IMG/VR virus record: IMGVR_UViG_3300032309_000943
Span: 1-50,088 of that record
Length of the DNA stretch: 50,088 nt
Source of the DNA: a virus
Direction: 5' to 3' (one strand)
Positions 3,488-28,453 of the stretch are shown one piece after another. The position numbers and the translations under genes are program-made. The notes under the pieces were generated by a model. It did not search any database, was not told the DNA's origin, and saw only the letters and a list, made by a program, of their open reading frames with translations. How positions within the stretch are numbered: position 1 is the first letter of the stretch; every line of letters begins with the position of its first letter.

Positions 3488-4033
3488 ATGGCATTTAATT
3501 TTCCAGCAAATCCAACATCGGGTGATATCTATACCCATATGGATATCTGCTGGGTCTATAACGGATATGCATGGTACAAGATAGATAGTCTTCCATTTTA
3601 CTATCAGCAGGATCCACCCACAGTCGGAATCACTTTTGGTGCTCGTTGGATGGATTCCGACACTGGAATTGAATACATTTATGTAAATGACGGGGATAGT
3701 TTTCAGTGGGTACAGCCAACCGACGATGGAATGTCAAACGTAATTCAGATAACACATTATGTTTCTGGAGCCACATATGCTGCCACCATACTTGATTACT
3801 ACATCGGCGTCAGCCACGCTGGAATATCATCTGTCATTCTACCAGAGAATCCAGAAACTGGCAGAATGATGACTGTCAAAGACGAGTCTGGTCGTGCTGG
3901 AGATCCATACAAATATATTGTTGTTACTGGAGCCACGGCAGCTGACACCATAGATAGACAACCTTCAGCCACAATAAATATCAACAATGGCGCATTGCAA
4001 TTCATTTACAGAAACGGTTGGAGAATCATATAA
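3488..4033 (+). CDS. Virion structural / tail-fibre-associated protein
   Basis: The protein of about 181 residues opens with AFNFPANPTSGDIYT and then CWVYNGYAWYKI. This Asn-Phe-Pro...Tyr-Asn-Gly...Trp pattern is seen at the N-terminus of many phage tail-fibre proteins and recurs in the gene at 5285 (LNFPTSPVLNQLYTFNGKTW). The rest is Thr, Gly and Ile-rich beta-type sequence with no catalytic motif. The ATG at 3488 is preferred over the TTG two codons upstream. Its stop overlaps the next start (TAATG), so the two are translationally coupled. It is probably a short fibre, collar or adaptor subunit; the exact role is unknown. Confidence 0.65.
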   Translation: MAFNFPANPTSGDIYTHMDICWVYNGYAWYKIDSLPFYYQQDPPTVGITFGARWMDSDTGIEYIYVNDGDSFQWVQPTDDGMSNVIQITHYVSGATYAATILDYYIGVSHAGISSVILPENPETGRMMTVKDESGRAGDPYKYIVVTGATAADTIDRQPSATININNGALQFIYRNGWRII

Positions 4034-5259
4034 TGTCATACTTATACAATAATCAAGTTGGCTTTGTACCAACTGCTACAGACGCATTTGGTAGACTAAC
4101 CGTGGCTAACCCATTTACACTTTTTGATTCAACTCATAGATACCGAGATAATGGCTTATGGGTTATTGGTGTTACTGGGAGCGGATCTACGGCAGCATTT
4201 AATCCCAACCAAGGTCTTGTTGATCTGACAATCGGAGTCACATCTGGCAATTACGTCTATCGTGAAACTACAAAGGTATTTCCCTACCAACCAGGAAAAT
4301 CTTTGCAAATTCTTTCTTCGTTTACAATGAATTCAGCCAAATCGGGTTTAAGACAAAGAACTGGATATTTTGGATCTGCCAACGGATTTTATGTTGAACT
4401 TGATGGAAGTGATATTTATTTGGTAAAACGAAGTTCTGTCAGTGGATCAACAGTAAACACCAGAATTGCACAGTCTAATTGGAATGGGGATACATTGAAT
4501 GGAAGCGGTCAATCTGGCATCACACTTGATATTTCTAAAGCACAAATTTTATGGATGGATTTAGAATGGCTTGGAGTAGGAAGCGTTCGTATGGGATTTG
4601 TAATAGATGGAGTGTTTATCATTTGTCATACATTCCATCAAGCAAATGTTGGTGTTGGGACTTATATGACTACTGGAACATTGCCTTTAAGATACGAAAT
4701 AGAAAATACTTCTACCACGGCATCACAAAGTACAATGAAGCAAATTTGCTCAACGGTGATCTCTTTTGGTGGATACGAATTGTATGGATCTCAACAAGGC
4801 ATTAATACTCCAATTGGTACCTCTTATACCCTGACAACAAAAGAAGTTTACTATCCAGTAATTTCGTTGCGATTAAAATCTACTAGTGTTGATGCTGTTG
4901 TAATTATGACGGCACTTTCGTTGTTGGCAGATACCACTGGTGAAAAATACAATTGGCAAGTTGTGGCTAGTGCTGTTACAACTGGTGGATCTTGGATCTC
5001 TGCTGGATCCAACAGTGCTGTAGAGTATAATTTAACCGCGACCAGTGCTACAATCGGGCGAATTCTTGCGAGCGGCTTTTTTAGTTCTACTGCAAACACA
5101 GGAAACTCTGTAAACATTCTGAAAGAAGCATTATTTAAATTTCAACTTGAAAGAAATACATTTACAAATACACAATATGAATTAGTGTTACTTGTAACAG
5201 CATCTCAAAATACCAGTAAAGTTTTTGCTTCAATGGACTGGGAAGAAATTAGCAGGTAA
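4033..5259 (+). CDS. Virion structural protein, lectin-like beta-rich fold suspected
   Basis: This 408-residue protein starts at an ATG sharing a base with the upstream stop. It contains TATDAFGRLTVANPFTLFDS near the N-terminus, then long beta-rich stretches with many aromatic-Gly turns. I associate this type of sequence with structural proteins of large marine and freshwater myoviruses, but I cannot name a characterised homologue. No enzyme signature is visible. It sits in a continuous block of fibre genes (3488-14086), which supports a particle-surface role. A concanavalin-type carbohydrate-binding fold is possible but is a guess. Confidence 0.6.
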   Translation: MSYLYNNQVGFVPTATDAFGRLTVANPFTLFDSTHRYRDNGLWVIGVTGSGSTAAFNPNQGLVDLTIGVTSGNYVYRETTKVFPYQPGKSLQILSSFTMNSAKSGLRQRTGYFGSANGFYVELDGSDIYLVKRSSVSGSTVNTRIAQSNWNGDTLNGSGQSGITLDISKAQILWMDLEWLGVGSVRMGFVIDGVFIICHTFHQANVGVGTYMTTGTLPLRYEIENTSTTASQSTMKQICSTVISFGGYELYGSQQGINTPIGTSYTLTTKEVYYPVISLRLKSTSVDAVVIMTALSLLADTTGEKYNWQVVASAVTTGGSWISAGSNSAVEYNLTATSATIGRILASGFFSSTANTGNSVNILKEALFKFQLERNTFTNTQYELVLLVTASQNTSKVFASMDWEEISR

Positions 5260-5284
5260 TTCAATAAGGTGTAAATATTAAGAC

Positions 5285-6385
5285 ATGCCATTAAATTTTC
5301 CAACATCTCCTGTATTAAATCAACTATACACATTCAATGGTAAAACATGGAAGTGGGATGGTGCTGGTTGGAGAAGTTATAATGTTGCGATTCCAGCTTC
5401 CCAGGGTCCGACAGGACCAACTGGTGCTAGAGGAGCAACGGGTCCAGTTGGCAACTATGTGGAATCTTTTAATGGTGTTACAGGAATTGTTGAAGTTAGA
5501 ATTGAAAATTTAGATGTTATTACTTCTAATAGAAGCAACAATTTTCCATTAGTTTGGAACAACGATACAGAACTCCATGAATATAAATCAGTACCTACTC
5601 TTCTTGGTAATTATGTTATTTCAGTGAATGGATCTACTGGCGCAATCACAAATGTAGCCAGGACAAATACAACACAAACTTTTACTGGGACACAGAATTT
5701 TCAATCTGGAATATCTGCATATGGCGCAACATTAAGTTATTCTGTTCTTCTTGGCACTGGAACTACATTAACATATCCTGTCAAATTCAACTCTGGTACG
5801 AATCTAACGACACCAATAAGTGGATCTGTAGAATTTGATGGTAACTATTTTTACACCACAACTGCTCATGGCAGAGGCTTGGCTGCTTCGGAACATATAA
5901 GTGTGATTACAAGCGATTATCTGCTTGCAAGTTCAAGTACACCACAAAATGCATTTCCTTCCGCTGGTGATACGATACCCATATCTGCAAATACAACATA
6001 TCTATTTGATGGTGAATATGTTTTTGAAACTGGAGCGACTGCACATTCTGTAGCAATGTCGTTTTCATTTAGCACACTGGGCGCAAATCCAAGTGCTTAC
6101 TTTTCAACTGTATCCAGTACAGTCGCAGTGGGAACAGTCACTAGAAATCAAGATACATCTTTTTTCGAGAGCATAGCTGGAGGAACAATTACAACATCGT
6201 CCAGCACTTCTAGAAAATATATCACTTTCAGGGGGATGCTAATATCCACTGATTCGGGATCATTGACCCCACAAATACAGTTTACGGTGGCTCCTGGTGG
6301 TACTAATTATATCAAAGTAGGAAGTTTTATACGGTTTAAACCAATAGGTGCTAATAATATGACTTCGGTTGGAAATTGGTCGTAG
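5285..6385 (+). CDS. Tail fibre protein with short collagen-like segment
   Basis: The 366-residue protein has an NFP...FNGKTWKWDGAGW N-terminal motif, then a Gly-X-Y stretch beginning QGPTGPTGARGATGPVG around residues 40-56, which suggests a trimeric stalk. Next comes a module (about residues 58-130, including LDVITSNRSN, ELHEYKSVPTLLG and TNTTQTF) that is nearly duplicated in the protein encoded at 9627. The C-terminal half is Ser/Thr-rich beta sequence, presumably the receptor-binding or capping part. The shared module suggests recombination between fibre genes. No enzymatic motif is seen. Confidence 0.75.
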   Translation: MPLNFPTSPVLNQLYTFNGKTWKWDGAGWRSYNVAIPASQGPTGPTGARGATGPVGNYVESFNGVTGIVEVRIENLDVITSNRSNNFPLVWNNDTELHEYKSVPTLLGNYVISVNGSTGAITNVARTNTTQTFTGTQNFQSGISAYGATLSYSVLLGTGTTLTYPVKFNSGTNLTTPISGSVEFDGNYFYTTTAHGRGLAASEHISVITSDYLLASSSTPQNAFPSAGDTIPISANTTYLFDGEYVFETGATAHSVAMSFSFSTLGANPSAYFSTVSSTVAVGTVTRNQDTSFFESIAGGTITTSSSTSRKYITFRGMLISTDSGSLTPQIQFTVAPGGTNYIKVGSFIRFKPIGANNMTSVGNWS

Positions 6386-20872: not shown

Positions 20873-21289
20873 ATGACAAGTGACGAACTATTTAAAATAC
20901 ATGAGGAATTGTGCGACTCTGCGCTTGCACTAATGCGTCTGAAAAACCATGATTATTCTGGTAAGACTGGAACCCAACCATTCGCCAACTTCACCAGAGC
21001 AGAGGCGATGGGAATCACCACGACCGAAAAGGGAATGATGGTTCGTCTTCTCGACAAGATGAGCCGTCTTTCTTCTTTCATGGAGTCTGGAGAATTCAAG
21101 GTACAGGATGAAAAGTTACGCGATACCATCCTTGACATGATCAACTATTCGGTTCTTTTGTACGCCTACCTTGACGAAAAGAACAATAAGTCGTATACTA
21201 TGGTAGAACTGAGTAACCCCTTGCCAGAGAGTGCATACGATATGTACTCCAAGGGAGGAATTGTTCCAAATACACTAGACACTATATGA
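20873..21289 (+). CDS. DUF1599-like nucleotide-associated protein
   Basis: The 138-residue all-helical protein contains MRLKNHDYSGKTG, QPFANFTRAE, MMVRLLDKMSRLSSF and RDTILDMINYSVLLYAYL, a layout I recognise from the phage DUF1599 / nucleotide-modification-associated domain family, which is distantly like MazG-type pyrophosphatases. AGGAG stands before the ATG at 20873. Being between a dUTPase and the DNA polymerase supports a role in nucleotide handling. The biochemical activity is not established from the sequence. Confidence 0.65.
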   Translation: MTSDELFKIHEELCDSALALMRLKNHDYSGKTGTQPFANFTRAEAMGITTTEKGMMVRLLDKMSRLSSFMESGEFKVQDEKLRDTILDMINYSVLLYAYLDEKNNKSYTMVELSNPLPESAYDMYSKGGIVPNTLDTI

Positions 21290-22752
21290 AATTCTACACA
21301 CATGTATTCTACGACGGTAAAAGGATTTGCTATCGTGGAATTGATTCGAATCGACATGTAGTCGATTCATTTTCCTATGAGCCATGTCTGTTCGTTCCAT
21401 CGAACAAGGAAAGCCAATACAAGACAATCGATGGTCGCAACGTAGAGAGGATGGCGTTTGAAAACCTCTACGAGATGAGCGAATTCAAGAAGACATATGA
21501 CAGTGTATCTGGCTTTGATCTTCACGGAGATATTGGTGTGGAGTATCAATACATTGCAGAGCAACATAATGGCAATGTCGAGTATGATTTCTCTCTTCTG
21601 AGAATCATGTATATTGATATTGAGACTACATGTGAGGATGGATTTCCAGAGATTGAAAATCCCAAGGAAAAGGTCATTGCAATTACATGCATGATGAACA
21701 ATCGCAAGACTGTATTTTGCCTTGGGCAATTCACTACAGATGATCCTACAATTACTGTGAATGAGTTTGATGATGAATCGCAACTTCTTTATAGTTTTGT
21801 CAAGTATTTTAGGGACAAGCAGCCAGACATCATCACTGGTTGGAACATCCGTCTATTCGATATGCCGTATCTAATCAATCGGCTGAAGCAAATTGACATC
21901 GATCCAAGAGAATTGTCTCCATGGAATATCCTCAAGGAGAAGAAGATCGAAAAGAGCGGCAAGGAGTTTCTTGTATATGACATCGTAGGAATCTCGACCG
22001 TGGATTACTATGAACTCTACAAGACCTTTACCTATGTAAACCAAGAGTCATATCGGCTTGATCATATTGCTTGGGTGGAGCTTGGAGAGCGTAAGATTTC
22101 ATACAACGAGTATGAAAGCATCTCCGATTTCTACAAGAACAATTTTCAGAAGTTCATTGAGTACAATATCAAGGACGTACTGCTGGTTGAACGGCTTGAG
22201 CAAAAGATGAAGTTGATGGAACTTGCGGTGGCTCTTGCATATTCTGCTGGTGTAAACTTCAACGATGTATTCTCACAGGTACGAACGTGGGATGTCATCA
22301 TCTACAATCACCTGTTGAAGAAGAACATCGTGGTTCCTCCAAAGAAGATCAGTTCAAAGGATACGCAGTACGCTGGTGCATACGTGAAGGAACCGATCAA
22401 TGGGATGCATAACTGGGTAGTTTCATTCGACATTGCCAGCATGTATCCATCGTCCATCATGCAATACAATATCTCACCCGAGACATTCGTTGAGCAGATC
22501 AATGTCAGACCAACACCAAAGGACATCATATCCCCATCGGAGGAGATGAAGAACGTATTCAGTGAATGCAAGGACAATAATATTGCAATCACGGCAAATG
22601 GTGCGTGTTTCACCCACGCAAAGCATGGATTTCTTCCAGAGTTGATGGACAAGATGTTCAAGGATAGAAAGATGTTCAAAAACAAGATGATTGAATCCAA
22701 GAAGCAATTGGAAGCAGTTGAAGCGGAGTTGAAGCGGAGGGGAATCGCATGA
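21286..22752 (+). CDS. DNA polymerase family B, N-terminal part (exonuclease and motif A)
   Basis: This is the first half of a split T4 gp43-type polymerase. It carries the 3'-5' exonuclease motifs ExoI DIETT (D111, E113), ExoII GWNIRLFD (D192) and ExoIII YNIKD (Y293, D297), then polymerase motif A SFDIASMYPSS (D382). It stops at residue 488 after ELKRRGIA in the fingers region, before motif B. Motifs B and C are on a separate ORF at 27338-28453. No conserved block appears to be lost at the junction, so two subunits probably assemble into one enzyme. The stop overlaps the following methyltransferase start by ATGA, so the break is a stable gene boundary and not a sequencing error. Confidence 0.9.
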   Translation: MKFYTHVFYDGKRICYRGIDSNRHVVDSFSYEPCLFVPSNKESQYKTIDGRNVERMAFENLYEMSEFKKTYDSVSGFDLHGDIGVEYQYIAEQHNGNVEYDFSLLRIMYIDIETTCEDGFPEIENPKEKVIAITCMMNNRKTVFCLGQFTTDDPTITVNEFDDESQLLYSFVKYFRDKQPDIITGWNIRLFDMPYLINRLKQIDIDPRELSPWNILKEKKIEKSGKEFLVYDIVGISTVDYYELYKTFTYVNQESYRLDHIAWVELGERKISYNEYESISDFYKNNFQKFIEYNIKDVLLVERLEQKMKLMELAVALAYSAGVNFNDVFSQVRTWDVIIYNHLLKKNIVVPPKKISSKDTQYAGAYVKEPINGMHNWVVSFDIASMYPSSIMQYNISPETFVEQINVRPTPKDIISPSEEMKNVFSECKDNNIAITANGACFTHAKHGFLPELMDKMFKDRKMFKNKMIESKKQLEAVEAELKRRGIA

Positions 22753-25240: not shown

Positions 25241-25308
25241 CGCTTCATCGTATAAAGGATATTACCCCCGCAACACGGGGAATGTGGGTTCGAATCCCAC
25301 TGAAGTAG
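25241..25308 (+). tRNA. Aberrant tRNA-like gene (position of anticodon AAC)
   Basis: The T arm (GTGGG-TTCGAAT-CCCAC) is canonical, and the acceptor CGCTTCA/TGAAGTA has six pairs plus a C1-A72 mismatch. The anticodon stem is a very GC-rich CCCC/GGGG, but the 7-base loop reads GCAACAC, with C where the universal U33 should be. Counting by position gives anticodon AAC (Val), an A34 anticodon that is rare in bacteria. The D loop is short, with a total of 68 bases. It may be a decayed tRNA, a non-decoding tRNA-like RNA, or an unusual tRNA needing modification. Confidence 0.55.
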
Positions 25309-25861: not shown

Positions 25862-26483
25862 TATCAATCTACCACCAATCGAATGTTTTGTGCGCGGTGA
25901 ATATCTAAGAAATATGGAAGATTCTTTTGATAAGAAATTTCCATGCGTGATTTTTGGAATGACAAGCATTCCTTCAAGAACTCCATTGTTTCATTTTTTG
26001 ATGGAAGATGGTGGTATTTGGTGGAGAATGCCGATCTCTGCATTTTCTTGGACAGAGGATGCAGTTTCTCAGGAATTAGATGAATTGGTTTTATGGGATA
26101 GTTTTTCCTATTACCCTACAGTTACTGTATTTGATATCTTCAAGAACAAAAAGATGTCATTTACTTCTAGAAGAAAAGAAAAATACACGGGAACATATCT
26201 ATTCACACTTGATTGGGCCGCTGGAGATTCAAATACTCTAGATACTGGATTTTCAGAAGCACCAGGACAGCACAAATGTGGCCATGTTCTGCGATTAGAT
26301 AATGGAAATTTCGCAATACAGCCAAATAATAGAATACTAGTACATGATCCAAGCTTTACGGTTAAGTATGGAAGCATGGTGATTGAGAGAAAATTGAATA
26401 CCAGAGTATGGTCTTCAGAGCAAAGTCCAAAGTGGATTACTGAAGATACAGACAAATATCATTATGATATAAATAATACTTGA
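25854..26483 (+). CDS. Conserved phage protein of unknown function
   Basis: The 209-residue protein starts MFNINLPPIECFVRGEYLRN and contains GIWWRMPISAFSW, DELVLWDSFSYYPTVTVFD, QHKCGHVLRLDNGNFAIQPN and KYGSMVIERKLNTRVWS. I recognise this as a conserved protein of T4-like marine phages, but I know of no experimentally defined function. It is rich in Trp and Tyr, with no membrane segment. The ATG at 25854 is preferred over one 15 bases upstream because conserved sequence begins there. Confidence 0.65.
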   Translation: MFNINLPPIECFVRGEYLRNMEDSFDKKFPCVIFGMTSIPSRTPLFHFLMEDGGIWWRMPISAFSWTEDAVSQELDELVLWDSFSYYPTVTVFDIFKNKKMSFTSRRKEKYTGTYLFTLDWAAGDSNTLDTGFSEAPGQHKCGHVLRLDNGNFAIQPNNRILVHDPSFTVKYGSMVIERKLNTRVWSSEQSPKWITEDTDKYHYDINNT

Positions 26484-26490
26484 TATCGTT

Positions 26491-26708
26491 GATCTTTGTG
26501 AACTAACCTAATGCACGGGGGTGCGAATCCCCCCGACTCCATTCGACGGGGTCGAACAGAATCGACATGGGTGTGCAAGCAATAGGGAGATATCCGAGAG
26601 GTCGTCAACAACCCTCGTTAAATGCCAAAGTTGGCAACATAAATGCCGCACCAATGCGGATGGCTGCTTGAAGCAGTGGGGGCTGGTTCTCCCGCATCTG
26701 AATGAACC
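26491..26708 (+). ncRNA. ssrA: Circularly permuted (two-piece) tmRNA
   Basis: The acceptor part comes first: T stem GGGGG-TGCGAAT-CCCCC (26517-26533), then 3' acceptor strand CGACTCC and discriminator A at 26541. Six bases later the 5' part begins with GGGGTCG (26548-26554), which pairs over all seven positions with CGACTCC, including the G3-U70 pair used by alanyl-tRNA synthetase. Helix 2 can form between GTGCA...TAGG (5' part) and CCTA...TGCAC (acceptor part). The tag frame ends GCC GCA CCA ATG CGG ATG GCT GCT TGA at 26671, encoding (A)APMRMAA, a hydrophobic Ala-Ala ending typical of tmRNA tags. The resume codon may be GCC at 26645 or further upstream in frame. The 5' edge at 26491 is approximate. 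Confidence 0.85.
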
Positions 26709-26736
26709 CAAACCCCAGTAATGGGGTTTGTTTTTT
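26709..26736 (+). terminator. Rho-independent terminator of the tmRNA
   Basis: CAAACCCC pairs with GGGGTTTG around a 6-base loop and is followed by TTTTTT. It ends the tmRNA transcript two bases before a late promoter. Confidence 0.9.
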
Positions 26737-26737
26737 G

Positions 26738-26746
26738 TATAAATAC
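26738..26746 (+). promoter_or_regulatory. T4-type late promoter
   Basis: TATAAATAC follows the tmRNA terminator directly and is 51 bases upstream of the holin-like gene at 26797. A late promoter here suits a lysis gene. Confidence 0.75.
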
Positions 26747-26796
26747 AACATGTAGTGATCGTCTAAACGTTGCTAGATTATACATGGGGACAATAA

Positions 26797-27144: not shown

Positions 27145-27363
27145 ATGAAATTTGGTCTATTTTTTACAAATGCCAACAATGAAGAAGACTGGATGCGAGA
27201 ATCTAATCGCAGTATTTCTATTTGGAATTCCCAAAAAGAAGCTGACGACTGGAGAAAGAACCACACAGTCAATCCAAATAAATACGAGGTAAAGCGAGTA
27301 ACGCCTAAGATTATTGCTGAAGACCACAAGGCTTTTAATGATGAACCTTCAAGAACTAACTGA
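27145..27363 (+). CDS. Unknown 72-residue protein
   Basis: The ATG follows the TATAAT box by only 6 bases, so the transcript would have almost no leader. The protein begins KFGLFFTNANNEEDWMRESN and contains WNSQKEADDWRKNHTVNPNK. It is hydrophilic, with no known motif. Its end overlaps the start of the C-terminal polymerase gene, so its translation may help initiate that gene. Function is unknown. Confidence 0.5.
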   Translation: MKFGLFFTNANNEEDWMRESNRSISIWNSQKEADDWRKNHTVNPNKYEVKRVTPKIIAEDHKAFNDEPSRTN

Positions 27364-28453
27364 TGATGAACTTCTTAAGTATAAACACTCTCTTGAATTT
27401 GACATAGCAAAATACAATAACTTTCAATTAGTGCGTAAGATTCAATTGAATTCTGCCTACGGTGCTGTAGGCAATGAATTCTTTCGTTATTATAGTACCG
27501 AATTGGCGGAAGCAGTCACTCTGACTGGTCAGCTTATTATTCAGTACATCGCAATTCAATTGAATGAATTTATCAACGATGCTGTTGGAACCAAGAATTA
27601 CGATTATGTAGTCTACTCAGATACTGACTCTGTGTATCTAAACATGGAGCCTATCGTCAAGAAATTCTGTGCAAATAAATCCACAGAAGATAAAATCAAC
27701 TATATCGACAACTCCTGCAAGAAAATCATAACTCCGTTCATTGAGAAGCAATTCGATAAGATGGCAAAATGCATGAATGCATTTGAGTCCAGGATCAACA
27801 TGGAACGGGAAGTTATTGCAGACAAGGGAATTTGGGTAGCAAAAAAGCGATACATGCTAAATGTCTGGGATTCAGAGGGTATTCGATATTCAAAGCCCAA
27901 GCAAAAAATCATGGGCATTGAAACCAGTAGGTCTTCCACCCCAGAGATTGTGCGAAAGAAACTGAAGGAATCCATTGAAATCATTCTGAACAAGACAGAA
28001 GAAGATCTGATTGAATTTGTCTTTGACTTTAGGAAACAATTCATGGCACTTTCCCCAGAGGAGATAGCATCTCCTCGCAGTGTCAATGGACTGAACAAGT
28101 ACAAGGACAAGGATCAGATATACAAGAAGGGGACTCCAATTGCAGTGAAGGGAGCTCTTCTATACAATTATCACCTTTCAAAGAAAAATCTTACCAAGAA
28201 GTACAATAAGATTTTTGAGGGTGAGAAGATTAAATTCATCTACTTAAAGAAGCCAAATCCGATTGCAGGATTCAAGGGAGACGAATGTGTAATTGCATTC
28301 CCAAATAAAATACCAAAAGAATTTGCATTAGAGTCGTTCATCGACTATAATACCCAATTCGAAAAGACCTTCATAGATCCGCTGACGAATATCATCGATA
28401 CGATTGGCTGGAACTATGAGGAGAAAAGTACGCTAGAATCACTTTTTATATGA
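27338..28453 (+). CDS. DNA polymerase family B, C-terminal part (motifs B and C)
   Basis: This 371-residue ORF holds the rest of the T4 gp43-type polymerase: the second fingers helix [20 protein letters not shown], motif [10 protein letters not shown] (residues 34-42), motif [10 protein letters not shown] (Asp95, Asp97) and the thumb region with KKRYMLN and [13 protein letters not shown]. It has no exonuclease domain. The N-terminal part at 21286 supplies that and motif A. The junction falls in the fingers loop between motifs A and B. AAGG lies 7 bases before the ATG at 27338; an upstream ATG at 27314 is less likely. It begins a run of replication genes and has an independent early-type promoter at 27111. 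Confidence 0.9.

Follow-up and report, generated by a model that had tools for sequence, protein, structure and literature searches.

Does the window, as we call the whole 50,088-base stretch of DNA analyzed here, a virus fragment, carry a complete circularly permuted tmRNA gene, and how did the intervening segment (IVS) between its acceptor strands come to be six nucleotides long? ARAGORN called a permuted tmRNA (tmRNA*) with the tag AAPMRMAA at positions 26449-26762. In a search of 4227 Rfam families, RF04321 (tmRNA_permuted) matched positions 26482-26671 across the full model with 67.8 bits (E 5.2e-11), above its curated gathering threshold of 47 bits. The one-piece tmRNA model, RF00023, did not match, and the region after the tag is a terminator, with no T arm or 3′ acceptor strand. 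These elements are encoded before the 5′ acceptor strand instead, with the IVS in between. Both programs and the surrounding phage genes bore out the initial annotation of the locus as a phage-encoded circularly permuted tmRNA, and of the standard and permuted covariance models proposed there as a check, the permuted one alone recognized it.

The gene sits in a 4.5-kb tRNA-rich insert that separates the halves of a split T4-like family-B DNA polymerase gene (Table 1). Besides several tRNA genes, the insert contains an HNH-endonuclease-like ORF, a SpoU-type methylase, a phage family annotated as ferredoxin and, immediately after the tmRNA, a holin-like ORF. A UvsX-like recombinase gene follows the C-terminal polymerase part, virion and baseplate genes lie nearby, and the polymerase shares ~50% identity with its counterparts in T4-like cyanophages. 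Between tRNA-Gly and tRNA-Thr, positions 25241-25308 gave a weak RF00005 match (32.8 bits) and no ARAGORN call; this is possibly a degenerate tRNA.

On direct reading, the acceptor stem GGGGTCG/CGACTCC is paired at 7/7 positions, including the alanine identity pair G3-U70, and TTCGAC alone separates the discriminator from the 5′ strand, both as first described. The helix 2 pairing was found again in the RF04321 alignment and by direct reading, and the proposed terminator is present as a hairpin followed by a T tail. For the tag, the Ala-Ala end stood, but the seven-residue sequence APMRMAA given at first is actually the eight-residue AAPMRMAA. The T loop, TGCGAAT, departs from the usual UUCRA, with G at position 55 in place of U, and CCA is not encoded.

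Table 1. Coordinates of the tmRNA gene parts and split polymerase in the window, and of tRNA-like RNAs in related phage contigs
Feature	Record	Position	Strand	Basis
N-terminal part of split DNA polymerase (exonuclease and start of polymerase domain)	Window	21286..22752	+	Pfam, PHROGs
Helix 2, 5′ strand GATATC, start of acceptor piece	Window	26482..26487	+	Pairs with 26589-26594; RF04321 alignment and direct reading
T arm GGGGG-TGCGAAT-CCCCC, 5-bp stem	Window	26517..26533	+	Direct reading, RF04321, relatives
3′ acceptor strand CGACTCC (26534-26540) and discriminator A (26541)	Window	26534..26541	+	7/7 pairs with 26548-26554
Intervening segment (IVS) TTCGAC, 6 nt	Window	26542..26547	+	Direct reading, comparison with relatives, tree
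5′ acceptor strand GGGGTCG, start of mRNA piece	Window	26548..26554	+	Direct reading, RF04321, relatives
Helix 2, 3′ strand GATATC	Window	26589..26594	+	Direct reading, RF04321
Tag frame AAPMRMAA (GCC...GCT) and stop TGA	Window	26645..26671	+	ARAGORN
Intrinsic terminator: 9-bp stem CAAACCCCAGTAATGGGGTTTG, hairpin 26709-26730, then T run	Window	26709..26736	+	
C-terminal part of split DNA polymerase	Window	27314..28453	+	Pfam, PHROGs
tRNA-like RNA in tmRNA IVS (these four and others)	L003	5365-5498		
	L004	5340-5468		
	L041	9765-9867	-	
	L061	2729-2896	-	
Stand-alone element	L222	9438-9562		
	L223	5714-5837		
	L224	1437-1564		
	L228	1711-1838		
	L231	3992-4111		
	L232	773-892		

Further related phage contigs were collected by DNA-pattern scans. 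Across these phages, the sequence of the acceptor stem changes (CGACTCC/GGGGTCG, CATCTCC/GGGGATG, CGGTTCC/GGGACCG, CGGCTCC/GGGGCTG) while all seven pairs and G3-U70 are kept, a conservation whose absence would have counted against the initial annotation. Thus, the tmRNA of the window is not a chance fold. The tag is conserved in relatives as AAPMRMAA, AAPMRRAA or AAQMRMAA. In L003, an HNH endonuclease ORF is inserted into the tmRNA leader (4721-5300). A vestige of the former T arm and acceptor persists at ~5270-5285, and another T arm, altered in sequence, lies downstream. L030 (104-235, minus strand) and L031 (2679-2810) have a permuted tmRNA with a T arm, the tRNA-like element described below and a partial 5′ acceptor strand; neither the mRNA domain nor the tag seems to be present in this version. 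Mosaic variants, such as that of L003 with its HNH gene and altered T arm, could suggest that the window gene is what is left of a degenerating tmRNA, from a host or a phage, without present function. This is very improbable, as the gene has its complete structure, and in relatives the acceptor changes are compensated and the tag is conserved.

Considering the sequence, fold, homology and conserved pairing observed, as well as the tree nesting presented below, the window very probably carries a complete phage-borne two-piece tmRNA gene that would mediate tagging via host SmpB, and whose 6-nt IVS is most likely derived. A single transcript would end at the terminator, and its acceptor strands would pair into a stem closed by the loop A-UUCGAC. 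From established tmRNA biology, host RNase P is expected to cut before G1 (26548); trimming of the 3′ end would stop at the discriminator A, and the host would add CCA. The acceptor stem and helix 2 would hold the two pieces together. After alanine charging through G3-U70, the two-piece RNA would join host SmpB, and stalled nascent chains would be tagged with AAPMRMAA. The SmpB would need to be that of the host since the check for smpB proposed at the outset revealed no such gene in the 50-kb record, a result of little weight in a virus fragment. This negative, the G at position 55 of the T loop and the missing CCA count against the model. Tagging may serve the phage in its own translation or in degrading host proteins, and the recoding of tags or diversion of host trans-translation suggested at first might likewise take place.

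A charged, SmpB-bound RNA might also act mainly as an inhibitor or decoy, competing with host tmRNA and sparing phage proteins from tagging. The tag-less tmRNA of phage DS6A inhibits endogenous tmRNA (PMC11915505), and the apparently tag-less versions in L030 and L031 fit this model. Nevertheless, the tag, the stop codon and the Ala-Ala end, none of which a pure decoy would need, are conserved in the window and in most relatives, making such a role unlikely for the window gene. For the relatives, given the tag-less variant, competition with host tmRNA may apply.

The window gene is a further well-formed phage two-piece tmRNA, of a kind that is already known. A phage copy with so short a loop had been considered unusual at first, a view that we rejected. 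The paper on OM43 phage Melnitz (PMC9004378) called 53 two-piece tmRNAs in genomes of phages, chiefly from marine or aquatic sources, and IVSs as short as 5-9 nt commonly occur. Scanning GTDB contigs with a sequence pattern, where the counts are lower bounds, gave at least 64 loci whose IVS is exactly 6 nt long, at least 46 of these being CTATTT, mostly in Prochlorococcus. Among the matches listed, there were many loci with IVSs of 5-9 nt, mostly in Prochlorococcus and Synechococcus; the IVSs of Synechococcus and Cyanobium were slightly longer than 6 nt, and the short-IVS tmRNA loci of Rhodocyclaceae had CCA encoded. A second phage lineage (L059, L062, L065) has a 5-nt IVS and a cyanobacterial-type tag core, ANNIV. 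We also found an unannotated permuted tmRNA with CCA encoded in a cultured phage, Caulobacter phage CcrRogue (JX100814, L202; 102546-102864, 88.2 bits). A search of phage-isolate DNA for a close relative of the window tmRNA returned short T-arm matches only.

The window gene has the part order, acceptor stem, T arm, helix 2 and tag frame of RF04321, which merges alpha, beta and cyano two-piece tmRNAs. Unlike the RF04321 consensus CUCCACCA, it encodes no CCA, its tag is the 8-residue AAPMRMAA, and it is phage-borne. The two-piece tmRNAs of Prochlorococcus, Synechococcus and Rhodocyclaceae similarly have IVSs of 5-9 nt, a 7-bp acceptor stem and G3-U70, but they are host genes, with tags such as ANKIVSFSRQTAPVAA and ANDERFALAA. 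Methylophilales phage Melnitz (MZ577097, PMC9004378) resembles the window as a marine T4-like myophage with a phage-encoded permuted tmRNA. In contrast with the window gene and its location in the split-polymerase insert, the Melnitz tmRNA has a 145-nt IVS and encodes CCA, and it was described beside a transcription coactivator gene (PMC9004378). The Melnitz tmRNA gave no match to R1, the covariance model that we built for the tRNA-like IVS RNA presented below.

The closest relative of the window, L002, with a polymerase 99% identical to the window's, has the same 6-nt IVS, and IVSs of this length are also found in L016, L018, L025, L026, L048, L052 and L058. In L004, whose polymerase is 75% identical, the same tmRNA gene has an IVS of 129 nt between CTCCA and GGGG, which starts with TTCGAC as in the window. 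In the majority of the related phage tmRNAs, a structured RNA of 103-205 nt occupies the IVS. The long IVSs range from 103 to 167 nt, plus one of 205 nt. The latter is the IVS of the permuted tmRNA in L015 (438-946, minus strand), which also encloses a complete tRNA-Pro(tgg) gene beside the tRNA-like element.

We built a tree of the tmRNA body with the IVS removed. The 6-nt forms were nested among long-IVS forms, and all outer branches (L024/L032, L043-L070, L006/L011/L012/L015/L029) had long IVSs. Three changes of IVS state occur in the tree, at least two of them forced by supported branches, and the direction of change is read from a single small tree, built on short RNA genes of recombining phages. 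With filters off, R1 gave no significant match in the 50 kb of the window (best 11.7 bits, E 0.17). Since the short forms nest within the long-IVS forms, the 6-nt IVS of the window is most likely derived: an ancestor would have had a class-II-tRNA-like RNA in the IVS, and its deletion would have left TTCGAC as a scar. That the 6-nt IVS is ancestral and the structured IVSs were inserted later, perhaps several times, might be argued from the presence of TTCGAC in both short and long forms and from the general prevalence of short IVSs in marine cyanobacteria. The nesting of short forms inside a clade whose outer branches are all long makes this order of events improbable.

Loss of a nested RNA thus appears the best account of the window, and the surprising part of the analysis is the tRNA-like RNA of the relatives, both nested and stand-alone, rather than the window gene. 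When 13 versions of the IVS RNA were aligned with plain MAFFT, 97.6% of the cells of a six-helix structure were paired, and every one of the six helices showed covariation. Sixteen pairs were changed on both sides, with 38 such cells compared with a mean of 10.4 after shuffling. Covariation was as high in 0 of 500 shuffles, and the signal was abolished when the partners were slid. A hand count on 13 divergent members, biased towards pairing because the helices were picked by the analyst, found pairing in 362 of 368 cells, along with 68 double changes compared with 20.4 by shuffling. The same structure was recovered by RNAalifold unaided, and the minimum-energy folds of divergent members were nearly all the same five-armed cloverleaf.

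The plan of the IVS RNA is that of a class II tRNA. An acceptor-like P1 is followed by two bases and a D-arm-like hairpin. The third hairpin is short, without a normal anticodon loop, and the fourth is long and variable-arm-like, with a conserved internal loop GUAAAA/ACAAA. The fifth hairpin is T-arm-like and stacked directly on P1. The canonical sequence TTCGAAT forms the last loop of the element in L224 and L228.

We looked for this RNA among known families. Two forms searched against Rfam returned no family to E 10 other than chance-level matches, and identity with a known RNA was rejected. It is not an ordinary tRNA, as neither ARAGORN nor RF00005 made a call and the best tRNA-type score was 14.2 bits (tRNA-Sec, E 1.4). 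Stable RNAs C and D of T4, which come from its tRNA region and reportedly still have no known role (PMC3014915), are likewise structured non-tRNA RNAs in a phage tRNA cluster, and RNA C has a T arm. R1 found no match in T4, and neither RNA was retained as a relative. Judged from alignment and predicted pairing, the structured IVSs of the relatives are one undescribed, class-II-tRNA-like RNA family.

In 78 pairs of type-A genes, median identity was 93.8% for the IVS compared with 81.9% for the tmRNA 3′ body and 63-66% for the flanks. A spacer that is discarded would not be expected to show the highest conservation in the gene, but here the segment expected to be lost at processing surpasses the mature RNA. 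Recent recombinational exchange could contribute to the high IVS identity. It cannot account for the covariation, however, which spans diverged types.

Among the first 26 loci, the element was confined to the tmRNA IVS, but wider patterns refuted this restriction. In phage tRNA clusters, stand-alone copies were found directly after tRNA-Tyr (L222, L223, L224, L228) or directly after tRNA-Arg (L231, L232, L233). The element also lies upstream of permuted tmRNAs in L223, L224, L227 and L229. In L221, it is located at 1308-1435, directly 5′ of a one-piece tmRNA (1431-1772; RF00023, 117.9 bits), with six bases between the element and the tmRNA 5′ strand. The spacing is nearly the same in the nested copies.

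R1 recovered 8/8 known element-bearing virus records, with one copy each. A host origin of the element was rejected: its exact pattern had no match in GTDB contigs, and with strict filters, which make for weak negatives, R1 found none among 274 genomes from the class to which one alphaproteobacterial MAG belongs and none among 292 genomes of the Prochlorococcus phylum.

According to one model, gene permutation starts with a tandem duplication, after which the outer halves are lost. By that route, the 5′ neighbor of a tmRNA ends up in the IVS, and we infer that the L221 arrangement is the one expected before permutation. Because the element stands alone in tRNA clusters and directly 5′ of the one-piece tmRNA of L221, we propose that the permuted gene may stem from tandem duplication, in a phage, of a unit made of the tRNA-like RNA and the tmRNA, minus the outer halves. 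The IVS would then be a functional gene in its own right for a new class-II-tRNA-like family (~105-165 nt, five arms, non-decoding third arm) freed on tmRNA processing, and in the window the nested RNA would later have been deleted, leaving UUCGAC. We hold this scenario tentatively, at just short of an even chance. If the element is a true stable RNA, it would represent a new family of phage RNAs associated with translation genes, in this respect like RNAs C and D of T4, and would offer a testable route for tmRNA gene permutation. A tRNA-like fold that also occurs outside tmRNA genes is worth a separate study.

Other structured RNAs were seen in the phage contigs. The permuted tmRNAs of L223, L224, L227 and L229 have a different IVS of ~100 nt that looks structured (CTCCATTAGCCTAACCGA...TCCTAGGCT). 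The L221 contig also contains a Pistol ribozyme at 4010-4077 (60.6 bits). Another stand-alone tRNA-like RNA, with a GCGTAG...CTACGC acceptor, was found in L038 (9969-10063), L070 (10588-10683, minus strand) and L226 (~1888-1970); in L038 and L070, it lies between tRNA-Gly and tRNA-Tyr and matches R1 weakly (E 0.2-0.4).
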